DNA from: Pelagomonas calceolata
Lineage: Eukaryota > Sar > Pelagophyceae > Pelagomonadales > Pelagomonadaceae
Length of the DNA stretch: 64,000 bases
Reading direction: 5' to 3'
Assembly (NCBI GenBank): GCA_918797485.1
Contig: CAKKNE010000002.1
Span: 1,640,501 to 1,704,500, forward strand
Positions within the stretch are counted from its first letter, which is position 1, and every line of letters begins with the position of its first letter. This document shows, piece after piece, positions 125 to 61,953 of the stretch. Position numbers and translations under genes: made by a program. The notes beneath the pieces are model-generated. The model was not told where the DNA came from and ran no database searches. It saw only the letters and a list, made by a program, of their open reading frames with translations.

Positions 125-461
125 GGCGCTCGCGTTTGTTGGCAGCTTAAATCTCTGAGAGCGCTCTCGGAGGCTGTGCGGCACGAGGACGCCTGAGCTC
201 TCTCGCAGCCAGAGAATGGTAAGTCAGCTTGCAAATGCAGGCGCACGCAAGTCTGCGGTGCCGTAGAGCGGCAGCTATAGCGACAACAAAGCTGCTCCCG
301 GCCCCGGCTTAAAGTACGGGTTCCACCACCTCGTACACGCGTCCACGTGGTCCCTGGTGGCGCAGAGTCGCCGAACGGCATCCCAGACGCGAGAAGGACG
401 GGTCCTTCTGTGCTAGTGTCTTTACAGGGACGCTAGCTAATTTTGCATGATACCGGCAACC
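125..461. other. Divergent intergenic region
   Basis: No supported gene. It separates the leftward kinase-like gene from the rightward FCP gene. It holds the palindrome GAGAGCGCTCTC near 156-167 and a copy of the bipartite CTAG promoter motif at 412-437. Confidence 0.6.
412..437 (+). promoter_or_regulatory. Bipartite CTAG promoter motif
   Basis: GCTAGTGTCTTTAC, a short spacer, then CGCTAGC. It ends about 25 bases before the proposed first FCP exon (ATG 462). It is one of at least fourteen copies in this window. Confidence 0.6.
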
Positions 462-1511
462 ATGGCGTATAACGCAGCGTGGACGACTCAGAATCACCCC
501 AGAGCTCGGGGACCTTATTATTGATGCTCGCCGCCCGTCCTGGCTTTCAAACAGCTCGCGAAATGGCCGTCTTGGTGCCGAGTTAGCCGTGGCAGCTGCT
601 CTGGGCTTTTGGAGGCCCAGCGCGAGCCGCGCGGCGAACGCGCAGCCGAGGACGTTCGCGACACTACCCGCCGCGCCGCCGGACCCGGCAAGAGCACCAA
701 ATTCGCACGACGAGAGCCGCCTACTGGACCGCCGTTCTCCGATGTCGACTTCGCCGGATGAGCCAACACCGCACAACGAGAGAGCCAGCTCGCCCAAACG
801 AGCTGAACCGACGCGCAATTCGCCCGAAAGAGCCCAGAACGACGAGAGCCCAGAACGAGCCACATATCACACAGGCGCTCCGTTGTGGCGCTGCTGGCGC
901 TCGCGCCGGCGAGCGGCTACGTCGCGCGCGCGCCGCTGTCCGCCCGGCCGCGGAGGACGGCGCGCGTCGCGCCGTCGATGGCGCTCATCACGGGCTCGCC
1001 CTTCGGCTACTTCGACCCCTTGCAGCTGTCCAAGGGCAAGACGGAGGCCGAGATGAACCAGCTCCGGGAATACGAGCTCAAGCACGGCCGCGTAGCCATG
1101 GCCGCGGTCTTTGGGCTCATCGTCGAGCCGTACATCCACCCTTTGGCGAAGTCGTGCCACCTCGCGCACCCGACGGACCCCATTCTCAGCGGAGTGGAAC
1201 TGAACTTCGCGGGCAAGGCGCAAATTCTCGGCTTCTGCGGCGGCGTCGAGGCCCTCAACTACTTCATCAAGAAGGGCGACAAGTACAAGCCGGGCGACTT
1301 GTTGGGCGCGGCCTACTACGTCGCCGACGAGGAGGACGAGTTGTGGGTCAGTTACCAGGAGAAGGAGCTGAACAACGGCAGATTAGCGATGGTCGCGTTC
1401 GCCGGGTTCATCACGCAGTACGGCCTCTACGGCAACGTCGACGACATGCTCTTCAAGCCCATGATCAAGCCGGCGTCCGAGCTGACGTGCTACGGCTGGC
1501 TCTGCGTGTAG
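462..1511 (+). CDS. Fucoxanthin chlorophyll a/c-binding light-harvesting protein
   Basis: Membrane antenna protein of the LHC superfamily that binds chlorophyll a/c and fucoxanthin in the thylakoid. The mature part has FGYFDPLQL, the first chlorophyll-binding helix ([15 protein letters not shown]), a middle helix (QILGFCGGVEALNYF) and the third helix (EKELNNGRLAMVAFAG). The first in-frame ATG of the main exon comes too late. I propose a tiny first exon 462-466 (ATGGC), a 408-nt intron 467-874 ending ATCACACAG, and exon 875-1511. This gives a hydrophobic start, MARSVVALLALAPASGYVARAP, which fits a plastid bipartite presequence. The total is 213 aa, normal for the family. The first exon is an inference; the main exon is secure. 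Confidence 0.85.
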
Positions 1512-1729
1512 ATTGTTTCTGAAGGGGAGTTAAGAAACATTCATTATCCTCATGCGGCGACGGCGTGCCCCCGTCGCCGCTCGCGACGCTCACTCCGACA
1601 AAACTACCTACGACGGCTGTGTGTGTAGAGTGCGGCTCACGGGGGGTCTAGTCCCTAGTCCATAGCATAAGCACAGCAGCAGAGTGGTAAGAGTGGCAGC
1701 CCTGGGCCGGGGGGGCGGCGGGGCGCGAA

Positions 1730-4700
1730 CTAACTACTCAACCTTAGCTCCCTCACGAGCTCCGCGAGCTTCGCCATCGCGGCGCGCTTCCGATGGCCCG
1801 CAAAACCGTTGGAGGTCGCGTCCGAGACGAGGGATAAGAGAGACGCCGTGTCCTTCGGCGTCAGCTCGACCGCCTCGTCAGTCGCCGCCGCGAGCGCCGC
1901 CAATTTCTCCTTCAGAGTACTCTGATCAGTACCGTCCCCGACCATGCGCGCCATCGACACCAAGCGCGCCCCGTTCAGCGTCAGCGCGCGACTTAGCCGC
2001 TGCCAGCAGCCCCACGTCCGGAAGTGCTTGTAGAACAAGGACAGGGCCGGCTCCTGCTCGAGCAAGTGACAAAAGTCCATCGCATCCAGCGCGTGCATCT
2101 GCGTCACCGCCGTCGCGTGGCAGGAATAATGCCTCAAAATCTTCTCACGCGCGCCGCACGCCTGTGTGCTCAAAATCAAAAAAGAAACGACCCCCGGCAT
2201 CGTGCGATGGCCACGAGTCTCATGGACACGACGGGACGCCGTATACATACCAGCATCGCGATGTCATCGCCGATGAACTCGTCGTCCTGCTTCACACTTA
2301 TCCCGAAAGTTTTTCTCGCGTCGTAGTTCAAACAACACACTTTCCCGTGCTCGATGACGTACATGACGTCGTTCAGACTCAGGTCCTTGTGGACGATGAC
2401 GTCGAAGGTCATGAACAGTCGCGTCGTGAATAAGGAAGCGACCTTCGAGAGAAATAGATCCCGCTGGAAGTGCAAGCGTTGTATTTCACCTCGTCTAAGA
2501 TGTAACAAGTCCGGAGGTAGAGGTGGGGGCTCGATGTGCGTATGCCTGACGTTCTTTTGGACCTCGCCTGCGCGGAGCATCGCGGTCTATGGACACGAGT
2601 CGCGTCGATGGCGTGAAGGGACGCCGCGAGCGCACCGTCGTCGAACTGCACATCATATCGCAACAGTGAAGGAGATCTAAGTACGAGAGCAGGTCTACCC
2701 ACACTCATTTCTTCATCGTCGCCCCGCTCCCACTCGCGGTCATGGACCAAGACGCGCTGGCCCTTGGGGTAGCCCCCCGTCCGCTGCACCGTGTGAGCAT
2801 AAAAAGGGATCTTCTCGACGACGTGGCCCATCTTCTTGCGAGCCACTACCGATATAAGTGTAGGTGATAGTTTCGTGAGCATCTCCTTGTTGAAGTGGTC
2901 CCGGAAACAAGGTTCCGACAGCATGATGTACTCCCGCAGCTTGAGTCGTAGGTCGTTGTCGAAGCCGCTCCGATGCATGTAGTCGTTCAAATTATCTAAA
3001 GTTTGTTTAAATTCATTCGCCACGGGGTCCAAATTACTCATGATGTTCGACAGGTCGCCGATGAGGAACGCCATCACGATGATGCCCCCGAGCATCACCT
3101 GCGTGGCGGTTTCGCGTGTTGCCGCGGTTTTCTGGCGAGATGACGCCATCGACGCGACTCGTCTCCGTCTCACAATGAAGTGGGTGCTTTGGTTTTCGAT
3201 TTTGGGCCGATTCGGGCGAAGGCGACGGGACGCCGCGACGCGACCAGCAGACCTAGCACGCCCTCGCCGTGCGTTCTTGTACTAGCCTCACCGTTAATAG
3301 CGACGAGCGCCCAGACCGCCGCCTCCACGTACTGCGCCCAGATGCCGTCCCGGTAGTTACTCGTCGAAGTTAATATGGTCTGGGGGCAATCATCCCATGA
3401 GCACTCTGCTAGTGTATACTCCGTCACCAATTTCAAAGCGCAGGCCGTCCAGTGGACGATGACGATGAGCACGACGCAGTATTTGATCACGGTCTGTAAT
3501 TTGGTGGACATGTCGACGTGCTTGGCGATGTTGTTGACGAGCTCCTGCGACCGGAGGACCTGCGTGGCGCTTCGTCGATTTCGGAGGCGCGCTCGCGAGA
3601 CACTCACCTTGGCGAGCTTCATCAGCCGGAAGACTCGCAGTAGTCTTATCGCAGAAGCTTGTTTGGATTTGATCATGTACTCGACGGGCAGCATCGACAC
3701 AACGTCCAACGCCATCCAGCCGCGCGCGTAGTGGAGTGCTATCTGGTCGAAGCGCAACAGCCACTTGTTGAGCTGTGGATCGTAGACGGCCGTTAAGAAA
3801 TTGAAGATAATATCGACAATGAATAACAAATTAACAGTCCAATTTGTTATAAACAATCCGGTATATTTATTGGGAAACGGCGTGTAGTTCTTGCTCCAGC
3901 CCACCGCAGACACAAAGGCCAGCTCGAAGGGCGTCACGATCATCACGAAGCCTGCGTGGAAGTGACGCTATCTCGGCACCGCGGTCCTCGGAGAGGCCCA
4001 AACCCGGACACGACGTTCCTCAGACCACGAGAGACCACGAATTGAAGGGCGCTTGAACTTTGCTTGCCACACGGGACCACACAGATCATGAGCATCATCA
4101 AAATGTCCCATTTCAATCGCCATTTTTGTAGAGGGTCCATGACCAGCCAGTGGGCCCGATGCCTCGGGAACTTGTTCGACCGCATGTCATCGAGCAGCTC
4201 CTTCTCGATGTCGTCGTCCTGCTTCTCGAAGAGGCCTATGAGGTCCGTGAAGGTCGTTCGTGAGCGGGCGCGTTTCATTTTCCGCAGCCGTTGGCGTTTT
4301 TCTTTCGCGAGGGTCGAAGAGGTGGAGTCCGACGACGACGTGCGCTTGATCTTTGCCGGTGTCTTGTGCCACGAACTTCGCGTCGGTGCGGCTTGTTGCG
4401 CCGTCATCGTCAATAATTGGCCGCCCGTCGGCGTTTGGTCAACTGGCTTCTTTTTGAGGAGCTTGGCCGGGTTGAGGAGGGAGACGGCGTGCTTGGCCTT
4501 GCGCCAGCGGCGCTTCGCTGCGGGTGTGGGAGGCGCCTGGACGTCGTCGGGGCTCCCCTCGACCTCGGGCGCGTCGTCGCTCGGCGTCGCGACCGGCGAA
4601 GGCGCATCGTTCAGGGCCGCGTCGGTCTGCCTTCGCAACGACACGACGTGCTTGACGTCGCCGTCCTTCGTTTCGCTGGGACTGCCCTTGTCTTCGAAGG

Positions 4701-4737
4701 ACTCGCCGCGCGGCCGGTCGCCCGGCGCCGCACTCAT
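1730..4737 (-). CDS. Voltage-sensor cation channel of the CNG/HCN/EAG type
   Basis: Six exons (4737-4083, 3951-3608, 3559-3245, 3098-2705, 2567-2251, 2161-1730) join in frame to 818 aa. A basic/acidic N-tail precedes S1 (WDILMMLMIC), S2 (TNWTVNLLFIVDIIFNFLTA), S4-like IRLLRVFRLMKLAK, S5 (VIKYCVVLIVIVHWTACAL), a pore (YVEAAVWALVAINGEA) and S6 (LLVMLGGIIVMAFLIGDLSN). A C-linker and a cyclic-nucleotide-binding-like region follow (FMTFDVIVHKDLSLNDVMYV ... EFIGDDIAML). The pore has no GYG. NGEA aligns with the GE of animal CNG channels, which suggests a non-selective cation pore. Introns are 131, 48, 146, 137 and 89 nt. A CTAG promoter motif lies about 170 nt upstream of the ATG. Confidence 0.85.
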
Positions 4738-5162
4738 CAGTGGTGCTGTCTGGGTTCGAAAAATGGGCAGCCGCAGCCCAATGGCGCTACCACTGGTGCG
4801 ACCAGCGCGACCAGCACCGAGGCAGCCGCAGCCGTTCGATGCCTTCGCGCTCCGGCCTCGCGTGAAATATGACAGCACAAATCGCGAGTGCTTCCCGGCT
4901 CGGGCTAGTGTCTCACGGACGCTAGAGCTCGCCGTGCCTATCGCCAACGGAGGTCCCCGAGGGCCTCCCGGCGAGGAACCGGGACAGGTATGTCGCCGAG
5001 ACGCCCAGAAAATGACGAAAGGGGCCGTCGCGGCGGACGTCGACGCGCGGTGTGTCTCCTCCCCAGCAGGCGCTCCGCCCACTAGTCCTAGCACCGAACC
5101 AATACACGGACGTCGTCGGTGCCACGAGAAGAGTCCCCCAAGTTACGCGGGAGCACAGACGC
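4738..5162. other. Intergenic region upstream of the channel gene
   Basis: No supported gene. It holds the channel's putative promoter with a CTAG motif at 4904-4925, and the 3' flank of the CEP164-like gene. Confidence 0.6.
4904..4925 (-). promoter_or_regulatory. Bipartite CTAG promoter motif
   Basis: GCTAGTGTCTCACG then GACGCTAG, about 170 nt upstream of the leftward channel ATG. Written on the plus strand it reads in the motif's usual sense, so its orientation relative to the gene is not fixed. Confidence 0.6.
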
Positions 5163-8100
5163 CTAGCCCCGCAGCCGCGCCTCGACGGCGGCGTCGAGCG
5201 CGGCGTCGCCCGGCACTCCCACGACCTCGGGCTCCGGCTTGCCGTAGCAGTGGGCCGTCAGCTCGTTCCGCAGCCCGTCCAGCCACTTCACGTGGGAGTG
5301 CATGCGGCCCTGCGCGTGCTCACGATTCACCGCCCACTCCCGCAGCGGCGTCGCCATCGTCGGTTGTGGTACTACGGGAGGCGGTGGTGGTGCCCAATGA
5401 GTACCAGAAGGTGCCTGGGCCTGGGCCTGTTGATAATAATCGTCCGTCGGGCGCGGCGGCGGAGGCGGCGGCGGCGGCATGCAGTAGTAGAAGGCTTGCG
5501 GCGGCCGGTACGGGTCGTACATGCCGTAGTGCACCTCCGGCGCGCGTCGATAACGGCGTCTCCTCCGGTGGGGCGTCTCGCTCACCGAGGAACAGAATGT
5601 TTCGTCGTCGAGCAGGTCGAGCTCCGCCAGCGGCGACGCGCCGGCCTCGACGCGCCGCACCTTCTCGTTCCTATCCTCGATCCAGCTCTGCGCCTTGCGC
5701 AGTTGCCTCACCAGCTTGTTCAGGTCCGACGCCTCGCGATCGAGGTGCTGGCGCTCCCGCGTCGACCCGCGCGACTCCTTGAGGGCCGCCCGGGAGCGCC
5801 ACGCGTTCCGCTTCTCCTCGAGCTGTCGTTGGCGCTCCTTGAGCCAGGCGCGCTGCTTCTGTACCAATTCTTTGGCCTCCCTGAGCGCGCTCCGCTCGTC
5901 GTCGACGCGAGATCGGGGAGACTCCTGCTGTTGCCGTAACTTGGCCTCCGCATGTCGTAACGCGTCGACGGCGGCGTCGCGCTCCCGTCTCGCGGACCGC
6001 GCGGCGCGGTCGTCGTTACCGGGTGTCGTGGGCGCCTGAGTCCGCGCCCGGGCCAGCTCCGTCTCCAGGTGCAGCGCCCGCTTCGTGGCGGCGTCTCGCT
6101 CACTCTCGGCCTTCTCGGCTCTGAGTCGAAGCGACTCGACGAGCACGGCGTCGCCGCCGCCACCGTCAACCGACGCCCGCAAGGACGCGAGGTCGCGCTC
6201 CGCGGACACGCGCTTCGCCGCTTCGCCGTCGGCCCGCTGCGAGAGCTTGTCGAGCTTCTCCTGCTTCCACGTCTGCTCCTTTTCCAGTTCCGTGGCCCGG
6301 TCCTCGGCATCACTCAATTTGCGCGCCATGTCTCGCGCGTCGGCCTTGAGCTTGCGCACGGCCTCCTCGGACGCCGCCAGGCGCTCCTCGGCGTCGTGGC
6401 ACTGCTGTTGCATTTCGTTCTTCGACCGGTTGGCTTCATCAGTATTGCGCTTGGCGCGTTGCGCGTCGGCCTCGGCGGCCTGCGCTCTATTCAGCAACGC
6501 GCTGTCCTGGGCGCCCGACCGGTCGTCGAGCTGCCGCCGCAGGTCGTCGATCGTCGCCCGCGCGTCGTTCTCGGCGCGCTTCGAGCCCTCGGCCCGCTCC
6601 TCCAACGCTCTCAATCGCGCGTCACTTCTCGATTTGGCGTCCTCGAGGGCCTTGCGCTCATCCCTACGGTCCCTTTCTAGCAATTCAAGGCGCGCCTCGG
6701 CCTCGCGCGCGCGGCGGTCCGCCGTGTCGTCCGCTCTAGCTTTGCTCAGTTCCGAGCGCGTCTCCGTCACCTCGCTTCGAGCCTGGCTCGCGCGGGCCTC
6801 GGCTTCAGAAAGCGCCCTCTGCGACGCGTCGCGCGCCGACCGCGCCACGGATAACTCCTCCTGCAGCGTCTTGACCAAGGCCGTCTGCGCGGCCAGCGCC
6901 GTTTCCTTGGCGCCGCACAACTCCTTGGCCTTGTCGGCGTCCCGCTGCAGCGCGTCCCTCTCGGCCTTGAGTTCCTGCGACGCCGTCTCGGCGGCCTCGC
7001 GGCGCCGCGTCTGCTCGGCCGCGTGCTGGGCGATCTCCGCGGCGTCCTTTTTCACAGTCTCCAACTCCCGTTCCAGCGCCGCGGCCCGGGGCAGCGACTC
7101 CCTTAACTTATCAGTTTCGTCGTCGCCGCTCGGCTCGACCTTTTGAACGGCATCTAAAGCCGCCTGGAGGCTCTCGCTCTTGCGCCTCTCCGCCTTGAGT
7201 TCGAGGTTGCGCTCGTCCAGGCACGTCTCGACGGCCTTCGACGCCGCGAAGTCGCGCGCCAGGTCCGCCTCGAGCTTCTTCACGAGCTCGTCCGCCTTCG
7301 CGCAGCGCTCCTCGCAGGTCCGCTCGGCCTCGGCCGCGCGGGCCTCTGCTGCCTTACAACGGGCCTCGGCCGCCTCCTCCGCCTGCGCCGGGGTTGTTGT
7401 TGGCTCTCCGTCGCACGCCATCGCCGCGCCCCCAGTGAAAAAAGACGCCGCCGCACGTACCGCCTTGAGGCGCTCGTGCGCGTCTCCAGTATCCGACGAC
7501 GTGCGGAGCCGGTCGACCTCCCTCTTGAGCTCGTCTCTCTCCAGTTCCAGGGACTTCACGAGGGACGTCTGCACCGGCGATGCCGCCGTCGGTTTTGGTG
7601 AAGGCACGGCGAAGTCCTTCGAGTCGGCGACGGCCGCGAGCGCCCTATTTCGGGAGCGCGGCCGGTCGCCGTTGCTCGAACCGTTCTGCGACGGCGGCCT
7701 CTCATTATTCAATAAACCTTCGATCTTCGTCTCCGTTTGTTGGATCGTCGCGGAGACGTCCGAGTCGCTCGCGGAGACGGCCGCGGCGAGCTTGTTGCGC
7801 GCGCGCGACGGCGGCCTATCATCGTCGCCCGTGCGCGTCGGCTCCTTCTTGACCTCGCCCAGATGGTCTCCCGTCCTCTTCGGCTCCTTCTTGGCCATTG
7901 TAGGAGACGTCGCGCCGATCGGGGCCAGCTCGCTCTTCTTGTCGGTTCCTTTCAGCGCGCCGAGCGGGGCCTTCTCGAGGGCCTTCTTCCTCTTCGCCTT
8001 CTTGGGCTTCTTATCTAGTAATTTACGGACGTCGTCCTTCTCCTTCTGCTTCGCGGTAGACGAATTTTTGAGGTCGTTGGCCTTCTTCTTGCGTTGCTCC

Positions 8101-8549
8101 TGCGTGGGCAGTGCGAAGCGTCGACGTCCACCTCGACGCCATCGACGCGGCGCTTCTCTCCGTGTCTCTCTCCACGTCCTCACGCCATCGACGCGCAGCT
8201 TCTCTCGATGATGCGAAGGAGGACGCCGCGGCGGGACCTCGTAGAGCGTGCGATAGTACTCGTCGCAGGGGTGGTCCCAGGTAGATTCTCCAGAAGAAAA
8301 ATTAAAGTAGTAGATCTCGTCCGTGTCCGTCGTCTTGCACGGTTTCCAATGTTCTGGTAGAGGCGCTTTCAGCCCTTCGCGCGCGATCCACTGCAAATCT
8401 TTGTCTTGCTGCAGGTCCATGCCGAGCCACTTCGCATATTCATCAATCTCGTCCTGGCTGGGCACGTAGTTCGGGTCGATCTCCTCCTCGAGGATGATCG
8501 AGTCGCCGGGCGGACTGGGGCCCGTGGGGGACGGGGAGACTTCCGGCAT
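5163..8549 (-). CDS. CEP164: CEP164-like centriole distal-appendage protein
   Basis: The N-terminus carries the CEP164 signature: DEIDEYAKWLGMDLQQDKD, LQWIAREGLKAPLPEHWKPC, then a WW domain (EIYYFNFSSGESTWDHPCDE). Known CEP164 proteins sit on basal-body distal appendages and recruit TTBK2 for ciliogenesis. A long Glu/Lys/Arg/Ala-rich coiled coil follows (about residues 200-950). Then come a poly-Pro stretch and a C-terminal helix (SHVKWLDGLRNELTAHCYG). The first ATG is at 8549. Two introns are inferred: 8100-8237 (138 nt) and 7383-7460 (78 nt). Both are multiples of three and free of stops, so they hide inside one long ORF; without them the protein is 1056 aa. The upstream extension to 8645 lacks an ATG. 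Confidence 0.82.
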   Translation of the reverse strand: MPEVSPSPTGPSPPGDSIILEEEIDPNYVPSQDEIDEYAKWLGMDLQQDKDLQWIAREGLKAPLPEHWKPCKTTDTDEIYYFNFSSGESTWDHPCDEYYRTLYEVPPRRPPSHHREKLRVDGVRTWRETRREAPRRWRRGGRRRFALPTQEQRKKKANDLKNSSTAKQKEKDDVRKLLDKKPKKAKRKKALEKAPLGALKGTDKKSELAPIGATSPTMAKKEPKRTGDHLGEVKKEPTRTGDDDRPPSRARNKLAAAVSASDSDVSATIQQTETKIEGLLNNERPPSQNGSSNGDRPRSRNRALAAVADSKDFAVPSPKPTAASPVQTSLVKSLELERDELKREVDRLRTSSDTGDAHERLKAVRAAASFFTGGAAMACDGEPTTTPAQAEEAAEARCKAAEARAAEAERTCEERCAKADELVKKLEADLARDFAASKAVETCLDERNLELKAERRKSESLQAALDAVQKVEPSGDDETDKLRESLPRAAALERELETVKKDAAEIAQHAAEQTRRREAAETASQELKAERDALQRDADKAKELCGAKETALAAQTALVKTLQEELSVARSARDASQRALSEAEARASQARSEVTETRSELSKARADDTADRRAREAEARLELLERDRRDERKALEDAKSRSDARLRALEERAEGSKRAENDARATIDDLRRQLDDRSGAQDSALLNRAQAAEADAQRAKRNTDEANRSKNEMQQQCHDAEERLAASEEAVRKLKADARDMARKLSDAEDRATELEKEQTWKQEKLDKLSQRADGEAAKRVSAERDLASLRASVDGGGGDAVLVESLRLRAEKAESERDAATKRALHLETELARARTQAPTTPGNDDRAARSARRERDAAVDALRHAEAKLRQQQESPRSRVDDERSALREAKELVQKQRAWLKERQRQLEEKRNAWRSRAALKESRGSTRERQHLDREASDLNKLVRQLRKAQSWIEDRNEKVRRVEAGASPLAELDLLDDETFCSSVSETPHRRRRRYRRAPEVHYGMYDPYRPPQAFYYCMPPPPPPPPRPTDDYYQQAQAQAPSGTHWAPPPPPVVPQPTMATPLREWAVNREHAQGRMHSHVKWLDGLRNELTAHCYGKPEPEVVGVPGDAALDAAVEARLRG

Positions 8550-8852
8550 CGTTGCGCGCTGCTGCCCCGGCCGCGCGGCTGCTTTGGGTGCTGGGGCCCG
8601 CGCTGCTGCGCCGCTGCGCTGCTGGCGCGCGTCTTTGGGGGCCAAACGATGGCTTTTGGCAAAGGACAGTTTGGTGCAAATCGCACTAGCGGCGCGGCGG
8701 TTAAAACTCGAGTCGTGGGGTCGGGGGAACCCTGGGGATGCTTCTGGACGGATTGTTGCGACAAATCCTGCTTACATTTCGTGCGGGTTCCTAGTGGGCA
8801 CCAGAGTTGCTTTTCAGCTCCAGCGGCCAATCCTGCCCTGTACGCCGTAATT
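8550..8852. other. Divergent promoter region CEP164-like / DUF3110
   Basis: No gene seen. The 303-base gap between two divergent starts must hold both promoters. No clear CTAG motif was found here. Confidence 0.5.
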
Positions 8853-9470
8853 ATGGATCGAAGGCGGATATCCCTCGGGTTCTGGGCTTTGGCCACCGTT
8901 CTCAGCTTTGCACCCGGCGCGCGGCGCCCCGCGTCGCCTAGACGAAGAGTTAGCGCAGCCCTGCGCGTATCCACCGGCGACGCGGCCCCCGGCGGCTCGG
9001 ACGCCATCTACGCCGGCCTCCGGGCCCGCTGCGAACAGCTCCAAGCCGCGGCGGCCCGGGAACTGACGGACCTCGCGGACCTGCGCCACGCGTGGGTCGT
9101 CCTTTTTAGGGGGGACGAGACGGGCGATGGGATCCACTCGCTGTCGAGCGAGGGCCGGGAAATAGTCTTAGCGTTTGAGGCCGGCGCGGAGGCGCAGCGC
9201 TTCGCCCTCGTCTTAAAGGCCCAGGGGTTCTACGAGCCGACGCCCCGCAAAATGGACGTCCGCGACCTCGAGGCTTTTTGTGCCTCTGATGAACGTATAT
9301 CATTATTACGCGTGCCCGAGGGCACGGCGCTGGTGCCGCCGGAAGATAGGGTGGATGACGTCGAGTTTTCGCCTCGCGGCGCGCCGTCGGCCGAGTCGAC
9401 AGAGGAGCTTGATGAAGCGTCGCGGTCCCTCGACGAGGCGCGCGCGCGCTTGGAATTGCTGTTCCAGTAG
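8853..9470 (+). CDS. Plastid DUF3110 family protein
   Basis: 205 aa. The core reads HAWVVLFRGDETGDGIHSLS, IVLAFEAGAEAQRFALVLKA, QGFYEPTPRKMDVRDLEAFC, which is the DUF3110 pattern known from cyanobacteria and plant chloroplasts (function unknown). It starts MDRRRISLGFWALATVLSFA then PGARRPASPRRR, which looks like a signal peptide plus transit peptide. A C-terminal acidic helix (TEELDEASRSLDEARARLEL) follows the domain. No intron is needed. Confidence 0.75.
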   Translation: MDRRRISLGFWALATVLSFAPGARRPASPRRRVSAALRVSTGDAAPGGSDAIYAGLRARCEQLQAAAARELTDLADLRHAWVVLFRGDETGDGIHSLSSEGREIVLAFEAGAEAQRFALVLKAQGFYEPTPRKMDVRDLEAFCASDERISLLRVPEGTALVPPEDRVDDVEFSPRGAPSAESTEELDEASRSLDEARARLELLFQ

Positions 9471-9507
9471 TCCTTTCCTAAGCTGAGTTTGTTGTAGTCA
9501 CATGATC

Positions 9508-11064: not shown

Positions 11065-11195
11065 GTTTGAGCCGCACCGCTCGGACGAAGACTTCGCAGC
11101 GTCGCAGCGGTCAACCAGCGACCTCGTGCTCAACGGTAAGCGGCTGACAGGCTCCGCAAACCGGCGCCAGCGCAAAAAGTTAATGCGTCCCGCGG

Positions 11196-11215
11196 GCTAG
11201 GTGTAAGACACTAGC
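11196..11215 (-). promoter_or_regulatory. Bipartite CTAG promoter motif
   Basis: On the minus strand GCTAGTGTCTTAC then ACCTAGC, about 130 nt upstream of the RCC1-gene ATG and in the gene's sense. Confidence 0.65.
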
Positions 11216-11265
11216 AGGCAAAACGACCCGTGCGCCCCGAAACGACACATAAAACGAATCACAAG

Positions 11266-13253: not shown

Positions 13254-13741
13254 GCTGCTGACTGTGACTAGCTTTGTGAGCTCGTCTTGTGCGGCTAGCG
13301 ATGCAACGCCGTTGGCGCTGTGTTGCAAGCTGGTTTTGAATTTATAATGCAGCGCAGATGCACGTGTTGCCAGGCAACAATGGCGATGCGACGCGGCAAA
13401 AATAGATGCTTATCTCGCCAATGCTGGACGCTGGTCATCGAGTCGACGGCCTCGACGCCTCCTGCTCCGCCGAAGTCGTGACGAAGCCGTCCTTCCAAGA
13501 CTCCTCTTCTCCTAAAAGGGATCCGGGCTAGCGGCCTAAGACACTAGGCATCCAAGCAAGCAAGCAGTGAGTGCCAGCGCGCGGCGTGTGGCGCATCCAA
13601 GGCGCTGTCACTCATTGATAAGATCAATACGAGCTGGTGCGATCCGAAAATCCAGCAGTTCAACGCCTATTGTCGCGCTTCGTATAGGTGCACTACCTGC
13701 CAGCAGAGCAGCACTCAGCAGCACTCAGCAAGGCAGCAGCA
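13254..13741. other. Divergent promoter region eEF1B / O-methyltransferase
   Basis: No gene seen. It contains a CTAG motif at 13527-13548 and, just before the methyltransferase ATG, a CAG/GCA-rich leader with the direct repeat GCAGCACTCA. Confidence 0.6.
13527..13548. promoter_or_regulatory. Bipartite CTAG promoter motif
   Basis: GCTAGCGGCCTAAGACACTAGG on the plus strand (complement CCTAGTGTCTTAGG...GCTAGC). It lies between the divergent eEF1B and methyltransferase starts, about 275 and 195 nt from their ATGs. Confidence 0.6.
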
Positions 13742-14745: not shown

Positions 14746-15507
14746 CTAACGGTGCCCGCACCCAAACGCCACAGTCGGCGGGTCCCAGCCCAGGCCCGCC
14801 GCGAGGAACGCCAGGTTCTTGTAGTTCTGGCCCATATCACCCAAAGCTCCGTTGATGCCGCTAATCGACGACATGCGGACCTTGGCGTTGCCGCCGCTCG
14901 TCACGCCGACGGAGAACTTCAGCTGATCAACATACCCGCCGCTCGTGGCGTGAAACCCACTGGTCGTGTAGCGCCACGGCAACGCGGGAGAGAACTGGAA
15001 CGGGTAGTCGCCCTGGTCGTCCTCGGAGACGTGTCCGACGGTGTCGCTCGCCGGGGCCTTGGCGTAGAGGCCGTCGCCGCCGCCGTTCTCGAGGTACGCG
15101 GCCAGGGCGTCGTAGGCGTCGTCGACGCCTCCATCGACGTGGACGTCCAAGACGCAGCACGCGTTTCCGCAGGACCCTTGGTCCCACTTGTCGCAGTCGA
15201 CGGGCTGACTGCCCGCCTTCATGCCGCAGGTCGCGTCCCCGAGGGTCGGCTGATGCGTCGGCTGGCGCGACGGCGGCCTCGTATGCGTCGCGGCGAGGTA
15301 CTCGGGCACGCGCGTCTGGCGCCGCAGCGAGCGTATCGAGACGGTGGCTGCGAGAGCGACGCAGCCCAGCGCGAGCACGAATGCGGCTGCGCGGCCGCCA
15401 GCGCCCCGCGGTCGCCGCTGTGGCCGGAAGGAGAACACTGGAGAGTCTGCTGAGTCTGCGTCGTCGATGGCACAGGCAGGGGAGGTCGTGAATTCCAGTT
15501 CAGGCAT
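14746..15507 (-). CDS. Single-pass Cys-rich protein, unknown
   Basis: 253 aa, not recognised. A cytosolic tail, one membrane segment (AAAFVLALGCVALAATVSI, residues about 40-58), then a lumenal part with GDATCGMK, CGNACCVLDVHVDGG and a final VAFGCGHR. The Cys spacing suggests disulfides. The order CVLDV...AYDALAAYLENGG...RYTTSGFHATSGGYVDQLKF hints at a small beta-rich domain with two repeats. Type II topology is likely. A CTAG motif lies upstream at 15573-15594. Confidence 0.6.
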   Translation of the reverse strand: MPELEFTTSPACAIDDADSADSPVFSFRPQRRPRGAGGRAAAFVLALGCVALAATVSIRSLRRQTRVPEYLAATHTRPPSRQPTHQPTLGDATCGMKAGSQPVDCDKWDQGSCGNACCVLDVHVDGGVDDAYDALAAYLENGGGDGLYAKAPASDTVGHVSEDDQGDYPFQFSPALPWRYTTSGFHATSGGYVDQLKFSVGVTSGGNAKVRMSSISGINGALGDMGQNYKNLAFLAAGLGWDPPTVAFGCGHR

Positions 15508-15846
15508 TGCTGTTGGCCTTCTTGTGTGAAGTAATGGCTGTATTTGGACGAATGGCAGCCAGAGAGCAGCTTGCTAGTGTCTTACCGACGCTAGGACAGC
15601 TGTGCGGATGCTTCTCCGCACCCCTCGCATCGCGCAGACGACAGCTCATTCGGGACGCGTCCGATTCAAAGCACAGCGTAGCACAGCGGAGGCGCAGCGC
15701 AGCAATATGATGGCAATTACGGCCGGCACGAGGACAGTGATGGACGGCCAGGGCGCGTGGGCGCTGCAGGCGGCTGCCCAGTGATCACGCAACCGGGGGG
15801 AATTCCAGCGGTGGCGCGCAGGACCTGCCGGAGACGAATTGGCACC
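15508..15846. other. Divergent promoter region
   Basis: No gene seen. A CTAG motif at 15573-15594 lies between a leftward start (15507) and a rightward start (15847). Confidence 0.6.
15573..15594 (+). promoter_or_regulatory. Bipartite CTAG promoter motif (best consensus copy)
   Basis: GCTAGTGTCTTAC, CGA, CGCTAG. It is the cleanest copy and sits in a bidirectional gap 66 nt from the leftward ATG and 250 nt from the rightward one. Confidence 0.7.
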
Positions 15847-26884: not shown

Positions 26885-27366
26885 GGTCTCCCTGTAGCTT
26901 ACGGTCCTGGTTCTGCGACGCCCGGCGGTGGGCGGAGGTGTAGTTTCCACTTTCCACGAGTGGGGTTGTGGCCTCCGGGCAGCCCGGCGGCCGCTCCTCG
27001 CGGTGCCGCTCGGCCGGCGCTGCCAAGCTCTCTGAGCAGCAAAGGCTAGTGCCTCTGCTAGGCGAGTGTGACGCGAGGCCCCGCGAGGGCGTCGCGCGCG
27101 AGGCGTGCCTGGGGCCACACGCCTGGAGCGGTCCTCCGCCCCGCCTGTCTTCAAATGGTCTTGTGTGAAACCCCCAAGCTCTCCCAGCGCTCGGTGTTTG
27201 CGCGCCGCGCCCACGCCCCAGCGGTGGTGACGGGCGCTTCCGGCGAGGCAGCAGCACGCCGTGACACCGCAGCAAGCGCACCACCGCAGAGAGACAAGGG
27301 CAGCACGCCGTAAGAGGCAGCCCCCTCTACAGACAGCAAGCGCCCGGCCGCCGCCGCAGCGTAAGG
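26885..27366. other. Bidirectional promoter region
   Basis: No gene seen. It separates two divergent starts (26884 leftward, 27367 rightward) and holds a CTAG motif at 27045-27062. Confidence 0.6.
27045..27062. promoter_or_regulatory. Bipartite CTAG promoter motif
   Basis: GCTAGTGCCTCTGCTAGG, a shortened variant in the middle of the bidirectional gap. Confidence 0.5.
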
Positions 27367-34125: not shown

Positions 34126-34139
34126 GGTGATCAATGCCG

Positions 34140-34290
34140 TGCGGTGCTTGCTCTGTTGAATGGGTGCCGTGCAGCTTTGCTGTTGAATGGGTGCAGTGCG
34201 GCTTGTAGACTGCAGCTGCTGCAGGTTGCAGCCGAGTGCAGCTTGCTGTAAGGTGCAGCTTTGCTGTGAGGTGCTACCCGAGTGTAGTCG
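34140..34290. repeat. Degenerate CTGCA/GTGCAGC-rich short tandem array
   Basis: Repeated units TGTTGAATGGGTGC (twice), GTGCAGCTTTGCTGT (twice) and GCAGCTGCTGCAGGTTGCAG lie in the 5' flank of the phosphatase gene. Confidence 0.6.
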
Positions 34291-34397
34291 ATGCAAACGC
34301 GTTATACGTGCACGACGATAGGTGCTTGGGACAAATGGCGTGCCTTGTCGGCGACAGCGCCAAAAGAGCGCGGTTTTACGCGAGTGCCAAAGCGCTT

Positions 34398-34420
34398 GCT
34401 AGCGGCAGTAAGACACTAGC
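34398..34420 (-). promoter_or_regulatory. Bipartite CTAG promoter motif
   Basis: On the minus strand GCTAGTGTCTTAC, TGC, CGCTAGC, in the sense of the phosphatase gene, 273 nt upstream of its ATG. Confidence 0.65.
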
Positions 34421-34515
34421 AAAAAATAGCCAGTGGCCAGTTCCACATCCTGACGGGGGTCGTCCCAAAAGAAGGGGGGGCGTGCGAGTCCCTGTGACTC
34501 AGCCCTTGCGTCCTA

Positions 34516-34596
34516 GTCCAGCCGGACGGGTGGGCCCGGGGGGAGCGGGAGGGGTACGGGGAACCCTGCGACGTAACTAGCCTCAGCCTCAGCCTC
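34516..34596 (-). repeat. GC-rich upstream module, copy 1
   Basis: Core on the plus strand: GACGGGTGGGCCCGGGGGGA, GCGGGAGGGGTACGGGGAAC, CCTGCGACGTAACTAGCCTC. It is nearly identical to copies at 53168-53240 and 56581-56652. It lies upstream of the CTAG motif of the leftward phosphatase gene. Confidence 0.85.
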
Positions 34597-41570: not shown

Positions 41571-42002
41571 GCTGGCTGCTTGATGCCTCTGCTGGGCTCG
41601 GCTTGTTTTGATTCGTTGCTTGCACTGATGTGAGACCTGTAGCGTCTTTCCAAAATGTTGCTGCGTTGCGAGGCGACTCAGACAGCTCTCGCAGCTCCAC
41701 CTACGAGGCGCTTGCATGCCATGACAGCCTTTGCAATGGGGCTCCAGGAAGGCGTCCAGGACGGTCGCCGCTCGCCACGGAAGGCTCTGTTGCGCGAAAC
41801 AGTTGTCGCTGGCAGTAACGAGCTAGCGTACACAGACACTAGGCTGTTTTGCAGGCTCGCATTGAGCTCCAGATTGCTTCGCATTACGTGCCCGTGGGCC
41901 GCAGCGTACGACAGGATTGGTCGTTTTGCGCAGCGCTGCGCTGCGATAGCATCGCTACAGGCTGCGGCGCTCTGGTAATTGTTTGCAGCAGCAGGCTGCA
42001 CC
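41571..42002. other. Bidirectional promoter region
   Basis: No gene seen. It is a gap between divergent starts, with a CTAG motif at 41822-41843 and a GCAGCAGCAGG leader before the rightward ATG. Confidence 0.55.
41822..41843. promoter_or_regulatory. Bipartite CTAG promoter motif
   Basis: GCTAGCGTACACAGACACTAGG on the plus strand; complement begins CCTAGTGTCTGTG and ends CGCTAGC. Confidence 0.6.
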
Positions 42003-43250: not shown

Positions 43251-43660
43251 GTGGTGGGCAGCGTCCGTCTTTTTTTTTTTGAGATGCCAGTGACGAATAT
43301 CCGACCCATTAAAGTTTGAGAACTGATCGCTCGTGACGAACCATCTTACGGACGTTCCAGCCGAGGCGTCGTCGTCGCGGGGCTGGCTTGGTCGACGGCG
43401 ATGGGCGCGCGATGACTGGGGCGTCCCCCGCGCAGGCGTCGTCATCACCCGATCTCTTTGTAGTACATAATAAATTCGCTTGAAATAGCCTCTCACGAAC
43501 ACGCGAGGCTTTTGACGGTGCTAGTGTGTTTCGACACGCTAGCTGGTCTGCCGGCCAAGCTTGTAGTCAGGGTTCTCTCGCGGTCCACTAGTACTGCCAG
43601 GCCCCTTCCGTGGTGCTGTGGTGTGCGACAAAAACTCTCGCCAGCTCTCGTGCCAGAAAA
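43251..43660. other. Intergenic region
   Basis: No gene seen. It has a T10 tract at 43270-43279 and a CTAG motif at 43520-43543. Confidence 0.55.
43520..43543 (+). promoter_or_regulatory. Bipartite CTAG promoter motif
   Basis: GCTAGTGTGTTTCGACACGC then TAGC, 118 nt upstream of the UPF0301 gene ATG and in its sense. Confidence 0.65.
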
Positions 43661-46800: not shown

Positions 46801-46959
46801 CAATCAATTGGTGTCACTGGTGGTGAATCGCCGACAATTATAAAGTCTTTGCGATTATGGCAAAGCGGACCGCGGCCTGCACCACGAGGATAGCGTAAAT
46901 CCACACAAACGCTGATCAAACAACGCACGTGCACTTATACGTCGGCCTCAATCAAGCGC

Positions 46960-46979
46960 CCTAGTGTCTTACCGCTAGC
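46960..46979 (+). promoter_or_regulatory. Bipartite CTAG promoter motif
   Basis: CCTAGTGTCTTAC then CGCTAGC. It ends 7 bases before the downstream ATG (46987), the closest spacing in the window. Either the leader is extremely short or a later ATG (47035 or 47044) is used. Confidence 0.65.
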
Positions 46980-46986
46980 GCCCAAA

Positions 46987-53075: not shown

Positions 53076-53139
53076 CGTTTCGTCGTGGCTTACCGCCGCG
53101 TACGACCGTATAGCACGTGCAAGAGTGAGCTTGACGTGG

Positions 53140-53162
53140 GCTAGCTGCATAAAGACTCTAGC
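53140..53162 (-). promoter_or_regulatory. Bipartite CTAG promoter motif
   Basis: On the minus strand GCTAGAGTCTTTATGCAGC then TAGC, 65 nt upstream of the coiled-coil ATG. Confidence 0.6.
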
Positions 53163-53167
53163 AATAA

Positions 53168-53240
53168 GTCCAGCGGACGGGTGGGCCCGGGGGGAGCGGG
53201 AGTGGTACGGGGAACCCTGCGACGTAACTAGCCTGAGCCT
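53168..53240 (-). repeat. GC-rich upstream module, copy 2
   Basis: GTCCAGCGGACGGGTGGGCC, then CGGGGGGAGCGGGAGTGGTA and GGGAACCCTGCGACGTAACT. It abuts the CTAG motif of the leftward coiled-coil gene, five bases apart. Confidence 0.85.
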
Positions 53241-53309: not shown

Positions 53310-54253
53310 CTAGAGCGGCATGCCCTCCGCCTTGAGCTGCTCCACCCAGGCCGTCGCGCGGTCCTCGCTCTGGTCCATCTGGTTCTGCTCGTCGCACATG
53401 AGGCCGCAGAACTTGTCGTCGCGGATGGCCTTGGAGTCGTAGTGGTCGTAGCCGTCCTGGTCCGTGAAGCCGACGACCGTCGCGCCGCGCGCCGTGAAGC
53501 AGTCGTAGAGCTCGCCGACCTGTGTGAAAATCAAATTTCGGACGCCCCACGCCCATCGACGCGACGTCGTCCTCGGAACTGCATCTGCTCGATGGCGTGT
53601 AGATCCCACGCCATCGACGCGAGATTGCATAACCTAGCTCACTGTTTGATTTCCACACAGGTGTCGACGGAGTCGCAGAAGTTGCCCGAGTAGCCCGCGC
53701 TGTCGCCGAGGCCGAAGAGCGCGACCTTCTTCCCGCTGAGGTCCGCGTTCGGCAGCTCGCTGTAGAGCCAGTCGTCGATGTCCGTGCCTGCGTGAGCGTA
53801 GCGTCGACGGCGCGGTGTAGGTGGTTACTCACCGGAGCGCATGTCGTCGGCGCCCGTGTTCCAGGTCGGCGCGCCGCAGATGATGCAGTCCGCCGCCTCC
53901 AAGTCCGCCGCGCTGACGTCGGCGATGGGCGTCGGGCTGATGCCCGTCGCGTCGCCGATGTAGCCCGCGATGCGCTCCGTGTTGCCTGCGGGCGGGCGTG
54001 TCCGCGACGTCAAATGAAAAATTCGTTCCGAACGTCTGCAAAACGCGGCATGGAGCAATGCTGCCCCGCGCCTGCAATGTGAAGCGTTCAATCTGCACTG
54101 GATCGTGCCGCTCATCGTGGCAAAGCCAATCAAGCCGCTCATGATGGTGGTGCAACGCGCAGCATTCGTGCGTTTTGCTCCGGATTTCAAGGTGCGCGCA
54201 GTGAATGCCTCAGAGGTGCCAAGGATGCACGCTACAGCGTATAGGCGCAGCAT
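53310..54253 (-). CDS. Plastid flavodoxin
   Basis: Exons 54253-54109, 53985-53833, 53787-53657, 53519-53310 join to 212 aa. The presequence (MLRLYAVACILGTSEAFTAR) has an ASAF-like SEAFTA site. FMN-binding parts: IGFATMSGNTERIAGYIG (phosphate loop), CIICGAPTWNTGADD (the W-containing 60s loop), ALFGLGDSAGYSGNFCDSV (the 90s loop region), TVVGFTDQDGYDHYDSKAIR and FCGLMCDEQNQMD. Flavodoxin replaces ferredoxin under iron limitation. Introns: 53986-54108 (frame demands a GC donor), 53788-53832 (45 nt, GTGAGT), and introner copy f. Confidence 0.88.
53520..53660 (+). mobile_element. Introner copy f (family A), last intron of flavodoxin
   Basis: 141 bp. Its body lies in plus orientation within a minus-strand gene, opposite to copies a and e relative to transcription. 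Ends CTGTGTGAAAATCAA / TTGATTTCCACACAG; target copies have diverged to 5 of 8. The intron 53656-53520 leaves DTCV between DSV and GELYD, where flavodoxins lack these residues. Confidence 0.85.
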
Positions 54254-55160
54254 AATGGCGTCGGATATTGCACGTGCGTGAGAGCAGCGCTTTAGCTAGT
54301 TTAAACATACTAGTAACGCACCAGACGACATCGTACAGGAAATTGTATACCACGGACATTGCCAGGCGCCCGGTGACGCGTGCTCCCACCGCTCTTGTTG
54401 GAGCACAGTTCGGAGGATGTAGGAACAAGCGCGATGGCGGCGGCCAGGAAGGTGGCTCCCAGGGCGTTCGGCCCTAATTCCTGTGCAACATCCGTCGACA
54501 CGAGCGCCGCTATTTTGTTGTGCGTCTGTAACTAAGCCACTTTGACAACGTCGTCTCAATAGGAGATAGCTCTTCTGCTCGCGGCGGGTCCCGCGTACCC
54601 AAATTACAAGAACCACGCCACGCTGCTGGTAAACGCGGTTTCTTCGTTTCCGACGCTCCGTTGTAGACTTCTAGAACTTATGGGGCATCAAGGGCGAGTA
54701 TTCGCGGGACGCGGATGCTGCATGTGTCACATGGGTACTTATACCTACAAAGGCGCGTGCTTCGGCTTAAAACGACGCGCGTAGCGTTGCTTAGAATGGG
54801 GCACGCGCGGGGTCACGCAGAGAGCCAAGCAGCACGGGCCTCGTCGACGGCCCAAATTGGCTTGCTGTGTCCACGTTTTGGCCTCTGACGCTAAGATCCA
54901 CTGCGCGACGCCGCGTTGCATCCTCAACCCTTCCAAGTACCGCTGCGGGCATTGCAAAGCGATACCAAAGCAAGGGCGTGCACCAAAATTGCCGCACTGA
55001 CGCTTCGATCAGGCTGCAATCCCGATTGTAGCGACAGTCGGGGCGCCAGCGCCGCTCCCGAGACTCGTCGCCTCGCGCGCCGCCGCCGCATGGCAAAAAA
55101 CAAGAGAAAGCAGCACACGTCACCGCTTGCACCCCTCACCGCGCGCACCGCAGGTCCACG
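54254..55160. other. Divergent region flavodoxin / aldolase
   Basis: No gene supported. A weak CTAG-type motif (GCTAGTTTAAACATACTAG) lies near 54295-54313, in the flavodoxin leader. The aldolase ATG is preceded by a likely 5' UTR intron acceptor (CACCGCAG|GTCCACG). Small leftward frames (54310-54501) are not convincing. Confidence 0.5.
54295..54313. promoter_or_regulatory. Weak CTAG-type motif
   Basis: GCTAGTTTAAACATACTAG, about 45 nt upstream of the flavodoxin ATG. It keeps the two CTAG ends but not the GTGTCTTAC core. Confidence 0.35.
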
Positions 55161-56455: not shown

Positions 56456-56580
56456 GCGCCGGTCTGATCGCTCTCCCCCTCGTTTATCTCCCCTGGTGTT
56501 AAAAGCGACACTGTTATATATATGTGTCCTGGGCGCGCGATCGTCGGCCTCTAGTCGTCGCGAGACTGCTCACAACCGTC

Positions 56581-56652
56581 GAGGCTGAGGCTGAGGCTAG
56601 TTACGTCGCAGGGTTCCCCGTACCCCTCCCGCTCCCCCCGGGCCCACCCGTC
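56581..56652 (+). repeat. GC-rich upstream module, copy 3
   Basis: GAGGCTGAGGCTGAGGCTAG, TTACGTCGCAGGGTTCCCCG, TACCCCTCCCGCTCCCCCCG. It is the reverse complement of copies 1 and 2 on the plus strand but in the same orientation relative to its downstream gene (rightward methyltransferase). Confidence 0.85.
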
Positions 56653-56659
56653 GATGACA

Positions 56660-56681
56660 GCTAGTATCAATCTACACTAGC
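56660..56681 (+). promoter_or_regulatory. Bipartite CTAG promoter motif
   Basis: GCTAGTATCAATCTACACTAGC, eight bases after the GC-rich module and 174 nt before the methyltransferase ATG. Confidence 0.55.
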
Positions 56682-56854
56682 TGGCTGACGAGTTGCTCCG
56701 CGGCAGAGAGCACGTGCCGTTCAAACTCGACGCGGTGATTGGCAATCTCGGTCTCAAAAGTGTCAAACGAATCGCTGGTAGAGTCATTTTTTCCGCAGGA
56801 TCCGTGCACAGCCTCAGCAAGCAGGATCAGCTGCAGCAGCAAGCAGCAAAGCCA

Positions 56855-58059: not shown

Positions 58060-58101
58060 CAATAACATACTTAACTTGAACTAAGTAAATACCAAACCTA
58101 A

Positions 58102-60518: not shown

Positions 60519-61795
60519 ATGCACGCAACGTCAACCACCACGACGCGCCGTCGAGCGCGTCGTGGCCGCGGCGCGGCCGCGTCAACCAGCACGAGAACGT
60601 TCGCGCTTCTCGTCCACGCCGCCGCCGCGCTCGCGCCGCGCTCGCCGCCCGTCAACCGGCGAACGACGCTCAAGGGCGTCGCCGGCGCCTGCGCCGTCGC
60701 GGCGGCGCCGTCGCCGGCCGACGCCGTCGAGAAGGCGTCGAAGTCGCGGGCGGCCCAGCTCGCCGGCGTCCTCTACGACTGCCGGCGCGGCCTCGCGAGC
60801 CCCGCGACGCCCGACGCGCTGACGTCGATGATCAACACGAACGTCCTCGGCGCGGGCGCGCCCCTCACGCGCGGCGTCCTCTGCGTGAGCGAGCGCCACG
60901 ACTGCTTCGACCACCACCTCGCGCAGCTCTACACGATCAAGCAGCTCCGGAAAGCATTAAGGCAGCGCGAGGACCGGGCCCAGGTCGCCGTCGGCCTCGA
61001 GGCCTTCCAGCGCATCCACCAGACGTACCTCGACCGCTACGTGAGCGCGGACCCGAACTACGGCCTCAACGAGCTCTTCCGCGACGTGGACTGGCAGCAG
61101 ACGTGGGGCTACGACCCGCTGCACTACGCGCCGATCCTCGAGGACGCGCGGCGGACGGGCATGCGCCTCGTGGGCCTGTCGCCGCCCGACGAGCTCCTCG
61201 ACGCCGTGGCCCGCGCCGGCGGCGTCCGGAACCTCGAGAGCCCGCTCTGGCCGTTCCTGCCTGTGTGGAAATCAAAATTTACGGCGCGTTCGTCCTCCAC
61301 GCCATCGACGCGAGCACCCGACGCACTGGTTGATTTCCACACAGGTTCCTGCCCGAGGGCGGCGTCTGCAACGACAACGCGCCGGGCCGCGTCGAGCGCC
61401 TCTACGGGTCGAGCGTCGACGCCGAGCGCCTGACGGCGGTCCAGAACTTCCGCGACGAGTACATGGCCGACGCCGCCGCGCGGCACTACGACGCGAAGAA
61501 GACGCGGGACGGCTGGCTCGTGCTCCTGGCGGGCCAGCGCCACGTCGCGAACCGCGACGGGCTGCCGGACCGCGTCGCGCGGCGCGTCGCGCGCGCCGCG
61601 TCGACGCCGGCGCACGGCGACGCCGTCTTCCGCGGCGTGCACACGATCCTCCCGGAGACGACGAACTTCCCCGTCAAGCTGGCCTGCCTGCCGTCGTCGA
61701 CCTACGGCGACGTCGTCTGGCTCCAGCCGAAGAGCGCCGACTTCGACCCCTCCAAGGTGAACCGCGCGCCGCGGCCGGCGAAGAGCCGCGCGTAG
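60519..61795 (+). CDS. ChaN-like (DUF399/Tiki superfamily) protein, probably thylakoid-lumen targeted
   Basis: Exons 60519-61264 and 61345-61795 give 398 aa. Blocks of the haem-binding ChaN/DUF399 family: VLCVSERHDCFDHHLAQLYT (the E.HD.P.HH-like site), VAVGLEAFQRIHQTYLDRYV, WGYDPLHYAPILEDARRTGM, RLVGLSPPDELLDAVARAGG, WLVLLAGQRHVANRDGLPDR. Presequence FALLVHAAAALAPRSPP is followed by VNRRTTLKGVAGACAVAAAP, a twin-Arg then hydrophobic then APSPADA cleavage site, so a Tat lumen signal is likely. The intron is introner copy i. Confidence 0.75.
61261..61344 (+). mobile_element. Introner copy i (family B, short), intron of ChaN-like gene
   Basis: 84 bp internal-deletion form of copy h. Perfect duplication GTTCCTGC (61253-61260, 61345-61352). 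Ends CTGTGTGGAAATCAA / TTGATTTCCACACAG are exact. Intron 61265-61344 gives WPFLPVFLPEGG, the duplication visible as FLP...FLP. Confidence 0.93.
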
Positions 61796-61930
61796 TCGCC
61801 CCCTTCCCCCCTCGTAAGTGTTGCTTGTGTTTTTCTTCCCGGTGCCACGAGTGTAAGGACTTTGACACTCTAATCATATGCTTCGGCGGCGTTTTCCGGC
61901 ATCGAGGCGGCAAGGGACGCAAAACCCGGA

Positions 61931-61953
61931 GCTAGCGTGATCGACATACTAGC
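61931..61953. promoter_or_regulatory. Bipartite CTAG motif without an assigned gene
   Basis: GCTAGCGTGATCGACATACT then AGC. The ends are good and the core is variant. It would mark a start site at the edge of the decayed repeat region. Confidence 0.4.

Follow-up and report, generated by a model that had tools for sequence, protein, structure and literature searches.

A bipartite CTAG motif at gene 5' ends of Pelagomonas calceolata as a putative site for a general promoter factor

Described promoter elements and the CTAG site

Little has been learned about promoter grammar beyond animals, yeasts and plants. In metazoans, the NRF1 and BANP promoter motifs are partly symmetric palindromes that are common at unrelated promoters, and in yeast the Abf1 site is bipartite. 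Sites of the yeast general regulatory factors Reb1, Abf1 and Rap1 lie upstream of many unrelated genes (PMC9481977), and in stramenopiles the oomycete elements INR+FPR and DPEP have been studied genome-wide as general 5' elements that have a direction and are located at or close to the transcription start (PMC3599244). Here we describe a bipartite site composed of two CTAG-centred halves, CTAGTGTCTTAC and CGCTAG, spanning approximately 24 bp (the CTAG site), in a 64,000 nt stretch of the pelagophyte Pelagomonas calceolata (contig 2, positions 1640501-1704500; hereafter the window) and across the genome of this alga.

The NRF1 and BANP motifs share partial symmetry with the CTAG site but differ from it in sequence. 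Compared with the sites of Reb1, Abf1 and Rap1, the CTAG site has a different and longer sequence with quantised spacing. It resembles the oomycete elements as a general 5' element of a stramenopile, but lacks detectable direction and occurs in about half of the sampled promoter gaps, whereas INR+FPR are combined in ~13 % of oomycete genes (PMC3599244). The same source gives forward-to-reverse ratios in Phytophthora infestans of 5.9 for INR+FPR, 2.9 for INR, 1.8 for FPR and 1.8 for DPEP. Comparison by reading of the INR sequence (YCAYTYY; PMC3599244) with both strands of the CTAG consensus, CTAGTGTCTTACAGGCCGCTAG, gave no match.

We consider it likely, with a probability of about 0.7, that the CTAG site is a double-stranded DNA binding site recognised by a single dominant, sequence-specific promoter factor, or by a few related ones, acting in the manner of general regulatory factors. 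The putative factor would grip both half sites across the ~24 bp and would tolerate only certain spacings, mostly 18, then 17, 16 and 14, and almost never 15. Once bound, it would keep the promoter region open, allowing RNA polymerase II to initiate in a single direction between tandem genes and in both directions between divergent genes. So strong a motif would allow promoters to be predicted from sequence, could serve as bait for isolating the factor and offers a ready element for expression vectors in the pelagophyte lineage.

We found no description of the motif in the literature on Pelagomonas, on pelagophyte or Aureococcus regulation or on stramenopile core promoters (titles and the starts of abstracts; subscription papers, most preprints and supplements lay outside the search). 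The matches listed named no nuclear promoter motif study in pelagophytes (one, on an Aureococcus virus, mentions promoter motifs), no literature on Pelagomonas transcription-factor binding sites was found, and among the matches listed for the literal GCTAGTGTC none was about algae by title. The words 'motif' and 'promoter' are absent from the main text of the P. calceolata genome paper (PMC9481584).

Sequence, abundance and spacing of the motif

The assembly comprises 32,445,274 bases in 8 contigs, six of which measure 3.9-6.3 Mb. The genome paper describes six nuclear contigs, with contigs 7 and 8 as chloroplast and mitochondrion, 63 % GC, 16,667 genes and 0.45 introns per gene (PMC9481584); GC content in the window is 59-68 % (per 4 kb). 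Sites were counted with a two-part weight matrix at a threshold of 18 bits, unless stated otherwise, in a 264-kb sample made up of the window and 20 evenly spaced 10-kb stretches of chromosomes 1 and 2. Training used the same 264 kb; a matrix trained without the window and 24 kb from four other chromosomes provided independent checks. Sequences or patterns with their letters reversed (read backwards) served as the control.

The bipartite motif is real and genome-wide. CTAGTGTCTTAC occurs 2,364 times in the genome (1,186 and 1,178 on the two strands) against 0 and 1 for the control, and a right CTAG lies within 9 bases of 95 % of these left halves (2,254 matches to CTAGTGTCTTACN{0,9}CTAG, 1,124 + 1,130; control 0 + 0). 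In the sample, 62 matrix sites reached 18 bits compared with one in the reversed sequences, where a threshold of 8 bits already yielded 12 matches per 264 kb. The 24 kb from other chromosomes contained four sites, three of them in divergent gaps, with no control match at 12 bits or above. All of the six top-ranked 8-mers of promoter gaps were words of the CTAG site. Extrapolation from the sample, which includes the non-random window, gives ~7,600 sites (5,700-9,700) for the genome. A second form, CTAGTRTGTCN{1,8}CGCTAG, was present 224 + 217 times genome-wide (control 1 + 1); among 100 listed cases the spacing was 16-18 in 73 and 15 in 4, an A preceded CGCTAG in 75, and a GATA filler was found in 13 of the 28 at spacing 16.

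The spacing between the two CTAGs is quantised. The commonest CTAG-CTAG distances in the 264 kb were 18 (22 cases), 17 (13), 16 (11) and 14 (8), and distances of 6 (11) and 9 (6) were also raised, through other words. Genome-wide, exact spacings with CG before the right CTAG numbered 49 at 14 (21 + 28), 2 at 15 (2 + 0), 159 at 16 (75 + 84) and 459 at 17 (229 + 230). The first 100 of the 2,254 matches (chromosome 1, plus strand) had a spacing of 18 in 70 cases, 17 in 18, 16 in 6, 14 in 4, 19 in 2 and 15 in none.

Within the window, 13 sites reached 16 bits (Table 1), whereas 14 of 15 first-order Markov shuffles contained none and the remaining one contained a single site. The matrix trained without the window recovered 11 of the 13, with no match at 12 bits or above in the reversed window. 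The 13-mer GCTAGTGTCTTAC, allowing up to three mismatches, matched 17 times in the window, where 8.4 matches were expected and no shuffle out of 100 gave more than 15. CGCTAGC alone was not enriched (11 found, 16.7 expected), indicating that the pairing of the halves carries the signal. At each of the eight loci chosen for the exact 13-mer the site adjoins predicted gene 5' ends, and a reading of the exon list places five of these loci in divergent gaps. The original prediction, made from the letters of the window, had listed 14 positions for the motif. Its coordinates were right and 12 of the positions score 16.6-42.2 bits, but exactness was overstated: GCTAGTGTCTTAC is exact at three places (11203, 15573 and 34408) and at least one base different at the others, position 27045 reached just 7.6 bits, and 36060 gave no match at 4 bits or above.

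Table 1. Coordinates of CTAG sites in the window and of dispersed repeats and introner-type introns (labels beginning with L denote stretches outside the window)
Feature	Position	Strand	Score (bits)	Context
Bipartite CTAG site	407..439	+	35.0	Upstream of + chlorophyll a/b-binding-domain gene (885-1508); usable ATG 538 bp away
Bipartite CTAG site	4899..4928	+	28.5	5' of - gene 4084-4836, opposite orientation
Bipartite CTAG site	11194..11220	-	31.1	Spacing 14; 5' of - RCC1-repeat gene 9511-10926
Bipartite CTAG site	13525..13553	-	32.5	Divergent: EF-1 guanine-exchange (-) / O-methyltransferase (+)
Bipartite CTAG site	15568..15597	+	40.8	Divergent genes 14752-15381 (-) / 15838-19932 (+)
Weak candidate	27040..27069	+	7.6	Divergent gap
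Bipartite CTAG site	34396..34425	-	42.2	5' of - histidine-phosphatase-type gene 33196-34251
Bipartite CTAG site	41820..41848	-	27.5	Divergent: aminotransferase (-) / DUF760/EF-hand (+)
Bipartite CTAG site	43515..43545	+	33.6	5' of + exons 43760-44158 and 44261-45394 (latter: AlgH-like domain)
Bipartite CTAG site	46955..46981	+	32.9	Spacing 14; divergent gap; ends 5 bp before ATG of + Ras-like gene
Bipartite CTAG site	53138..53167	-	33.7	Tandem gap; directly 3' of dispersed repeat copy
Bipartite CTAG site	54293..54319	-	23.9	Divergent gap; absent from original prediction; missed by matrix trained without window
Degenerate site	56655..56683	+	16.6	5' of + gene; directly 3' of dispersed repeat copy; missed by matrix trained without window
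Second form (CTAGTATGTC...CGCTAG)	61929..61958	-	31.7	1.8-kb gap, no gene called
Dispersed repeat copies, window	34516-34574, 53168-53225, 56603-56652, 5038-5094
Dispersed repeat copies, sampled stretches	L009:2788-2836, L009:2871-2978, L011:4898, L021:1920, L021:3753, L022:642, L025:8724
Dispersed repeat copies without nearby CTAG site	L014:11, L015:7258, L016:8296
Dispersed repeat copy, relative	L040:299-455
Introner-type introns	28529-28661, 53588-53655, 61266-61339			Window; also other same-strand gaps

Placement and orientation relative to genes

Exons were taken from a coding-potential script, with no gene annotation used, and a position was counted as exonic when at least 30 bp inside an exon. 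Same-strand gaps include introns, and gaps shorter than 80 bp were excluded from gap counts. By this scheme the sample is 71.6 % exon, 9.3 % divergent, 10.4 % same-strand and 3.8 % convergent gaps, and 4.9 % edges. The initial classification placed 27 of the 62 sites in divergent gaps, 25 in same-strand gaps, 1 in a convergent gap, 2 in exons and 7 at edges. Both exon calls proved to be over-extended open frames: one site (in stretch L027) sits after a stop codon and ahead of the following ATG, and the other is the window site that ends immediately before the Ras-like gene. The corrected classification is 28 divergent, 26 tandem, 1 convergent, 7 edge and none in exons, which form 72 % of the sample, and the earlier claim that no site lies in exons holds throughout the sample.

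Counted by gap, sites occupied 26 of 44 divergent gaps and 25 of 63 same-strand gaps, a total of 51 of the 107 gaps that could hold a gene start, compared with 1 of the 30 convergent gaps (Fisher P 3e-6). An introner-type signature, described below, was found in 24 of the 63 same-strand gaps, four of which hold a CTAG site. The signature-bearing gaps are probably introns, and among the remaining 39 same-strand gaps 21 were occupied, close to the divergent figure. The distance from site to first usable ATG ranged from 5 to 1,651 bp with a median of 184 (84 gene sides). The short 5' gaps originally described are a fair account of 10 of the 12 window sites of at least 18 bits, for which a usable start codon is found no more than 270 bp away on the closer side; the sites at 407 (538 bp) and 61929 (1,651 bp) are farther away. 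Neighbouring genes were diverse: 14 of 20 neighbouring proteins had a Pfam match (E 0.001; one below Pfam's own cut-off) to many different families, and 11 of the 15 proteins flanking sites of at least 16 bits matched many unrelated families. The suggestion of a general element at unrelated genes is borne out by these families and by the gap counts, and such placement, in 5' flanks of unrelated genes and outside exons, is as expected of a general regulatory factor site.

The gap counts also make it improbable that the site is a chromatin boundary or replication origin falling between genes by chance, since convergent gaps are nearly devoid of sites, and the extrapolated thousands would be very many for origins. 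Consistent with a boundary or origin, the sites are intergenic, orientation-independent and mostly one per gap, and they are scarce in low-GC stretches (see below), which the genome paper suggests encompass centromeres (PMC9481584). The possibility that CTTAC...CTAG, or GTAAG on the opposite strand, represents a splice site or branch point was rejected, because the sites avoid exons, occur in either orientation and differ from the signature found in introns.

Orientation was scored for 54 of the 62 sites, the 7 edge sites and 1 convergent site being excluded. Of the sites in tandem gaps, 15 share the direction of the gene and 11 oppose it; in divergent gaps, relative to the nearer gene, 14 have the same sense and 14 the opposite. 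The overall count of 29 same to 25 opposite (95 % interval 40-67 % same; ratios ~0.7-2.1) displays no detectable bias, as expected of a general regulatory factor, and is compatible with a bias of up to ~2-fold. A single site was found in 25 of the 26 occupied divergent gaps and two sites in the other, despite two gene starts in each. One site per divergent gap, together with the lack of a detectable orientation bias, is better explained by a shared site occupied by a protein than by a separate directional element for each gene.

It is therefore unlikely that the CTAG site is a directional core-promoter element, initiator-like in the manner of oomycete INR+FPR, that fixes the transcription start. 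Sites are common near 5' ends and at unrelated genes, one ends 5 bp before an ATG, and the slight majority in tandem gaps points with the gene, all of which such an element would explain. However, the bias toward the gene expected of it was not seen, divergent gaps rarely hold a second site, the distance to the ATG is widely variable, and no fixed-distance neighbouring signal stood out; inspection for a fixed-distance secondary element or a sharp composition edge near the site gave nothing clear. The orientation interval excludes the P. infestans ratios of 5.9 and 2.9 only, not 1.8 (PMC3599244). The original prediction had offered a promoter or initiator element; the former is supported and the latter is not. 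An RNA hairpin in 5' leaders, with GCUAGUG pairing with CGCUAGC, is extremely unlikely: judging from the consensus both arms can pair as RNA, but the two orientations are about equally common, and neither the window nor the relative's contig L040 (below) gave an Rfam match at gathering score, a search that an undescribed family would escape.

Occurrence in a relative and in low-GC regions

A search of viral contigs returned no stretches with one exact pattern, and a prokaryote genome collection returned seven (L038-L044), against a chance expectation of about nine (our estimate from pattern length and collection size). One of these, L040 (NZGT01000013.1), filed under a Spirochaeta metagenome-assembled genome (MAG), aligns to P. 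calceolata chromosome 6 2236569-2246679 in blocks of 83-94 % identity, a synteny that identifies it as a misbinned contig from a close relative. It carries five CTAG sites in 8 kb, with none in its reversed control. Judged from position and predicted exons, four precede called genes (ornithine/arginine decarboxylase-type, thioesterase-type, pseudouridine synthase and EamA transporter), and the fifth (4288-4316) lies in a gap, the exons closest to it having weak calls. At two of these sites an aligned block begins or ends with the motif (q4288, q2199), a hint that sites are retained where their flanks are not. A 298-base query around the site at 5350 found only an identical 30-base stretch on chromosome 3. 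The GTDB MAG Spirochaeta sp. MED672 thus contains algal sequence; L039 (NZGT01000179.1), from the same MAG and with one exon bearing an EDR2_C domain, is probably algal as well, and the matches in L043 and L044 probably arose by chance.

Sites were scarce in regions of low GC content. On the plus strand of chromosome 1, no site is listed between those at 2,585,303 and 2,963,179, an interval in which 14.5 were expected and which was chosen after seeing the gap. Three stretches inside it (L033, L035 and L036; ~2.59-2.96 Mb, 48-52 % GC) contain long open frames and no site. Together with L026 (51 % GC) they hold 1 site in 40 kb, compared with 66 in 298 kb elsewhere (one-sided Poisson P 0.0014); L034 and L037, in the same interval, are GC-rich (73 % and 69 %) and were included in the latter count; one site in L037 shows that the interval is not empty. 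According to the genome paper, low-GC troughs suggest centromeres and gene density drops only slightly there (PMC9481584). A tentative extension of our proposal is that a lineage-specific factor with a two-part footprint and quantised spacing may be the main promoter-defining factor of pelagophytes, acting at about half or more of promoters in both directions and replaced in centromeric low-GC regions.

Several observations weigh against a dominant promoter factor. The low-GC scarcity, in stretches with long open frames, is unexpected for a universal factor. At 18 bits no site was present in 18 of 44 divergent gaps or in 18 of the 39 same-strand gaps without an introner signature, and one site does lie in a convergent gap (L010:5912). 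The orientation interval is compatible with a weak bias, such as a ratio of 1.8, and all four sites of the relative with a called downstream gene are in the opposite sense to it, a number too small to judge. No candidate factor emerged from a search confined to C2H2 zinc fingers, which gave two matches.

Dispersed repeats and introner-type introns

The CTAG site is very unlikely to have originated from a mobile element, whether a miniature inverted-repeat transposable element or an introner element, as its relic or terminal repeat. Its inverted CTAG ends and the dispersed repeat adjoining some sites are suggestive of such an origin, and 3-base direct repeats are slightly commoner beside sites (51 of 62 against 41.2 in controls). 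However, there was no clear excess of flanking repeats of 4-8 bases (4 bases, 19 against 15.9; 5 bases, 6 against 5.0; 6 bases, 1 against 2.0; 8 bases, 0 against 0.2), no strongly conserved positions were found outside the site, and neither a target-site duplication nor a shared body marked it as an element terminus. CTAG sites also do not behave as introners, which would lie in introns with the introner-type signature. That signature is a different sequence, and 8 of the 51 site-bearing divergent and same-strand gaps also hold it.

The dispersed repeat consists of two pieces, of 58 bp and ~157 bp, the second predicted to fold strongly, located after the upstream gene. All 13 copies with a called upstream exon, two of which share one gap, are co-oriented with that exon. 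A CTAG site lies on the 3' side within 152 bp in 11 of 14 copies and within 30 bp in seven, a proximity (30 bp) shared by 8.8 % of non-exon positions. The repeat is possibly a 3'-end signal or an element targeting promoter sites. In the relative, a related copy (L040:2038-2198) lies beside a CTAG site; its flanking blocks abut in P. calceolata at chromosome 6 2244520/2244521, so the repeat has been gained or lost there.

Introner-type introns display an inverted GTCGATGGCGTGG signature and a common acceptor-like TTGATTTCCACACAG. With up to two mismatches the signature, which we infer to mark introners, had 119 matches against 13 in the control, 47 of them in same-strand gaps and 52 in called exon. 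A repeat seed was also found at nearly the same coordinates near the starts of chromosomes 1 and 5 (23,888/23,863; 48,567/48,526; 283,587/283,541), pointing to a duplicated block in the first 0.3 Mb of both chromosomes.

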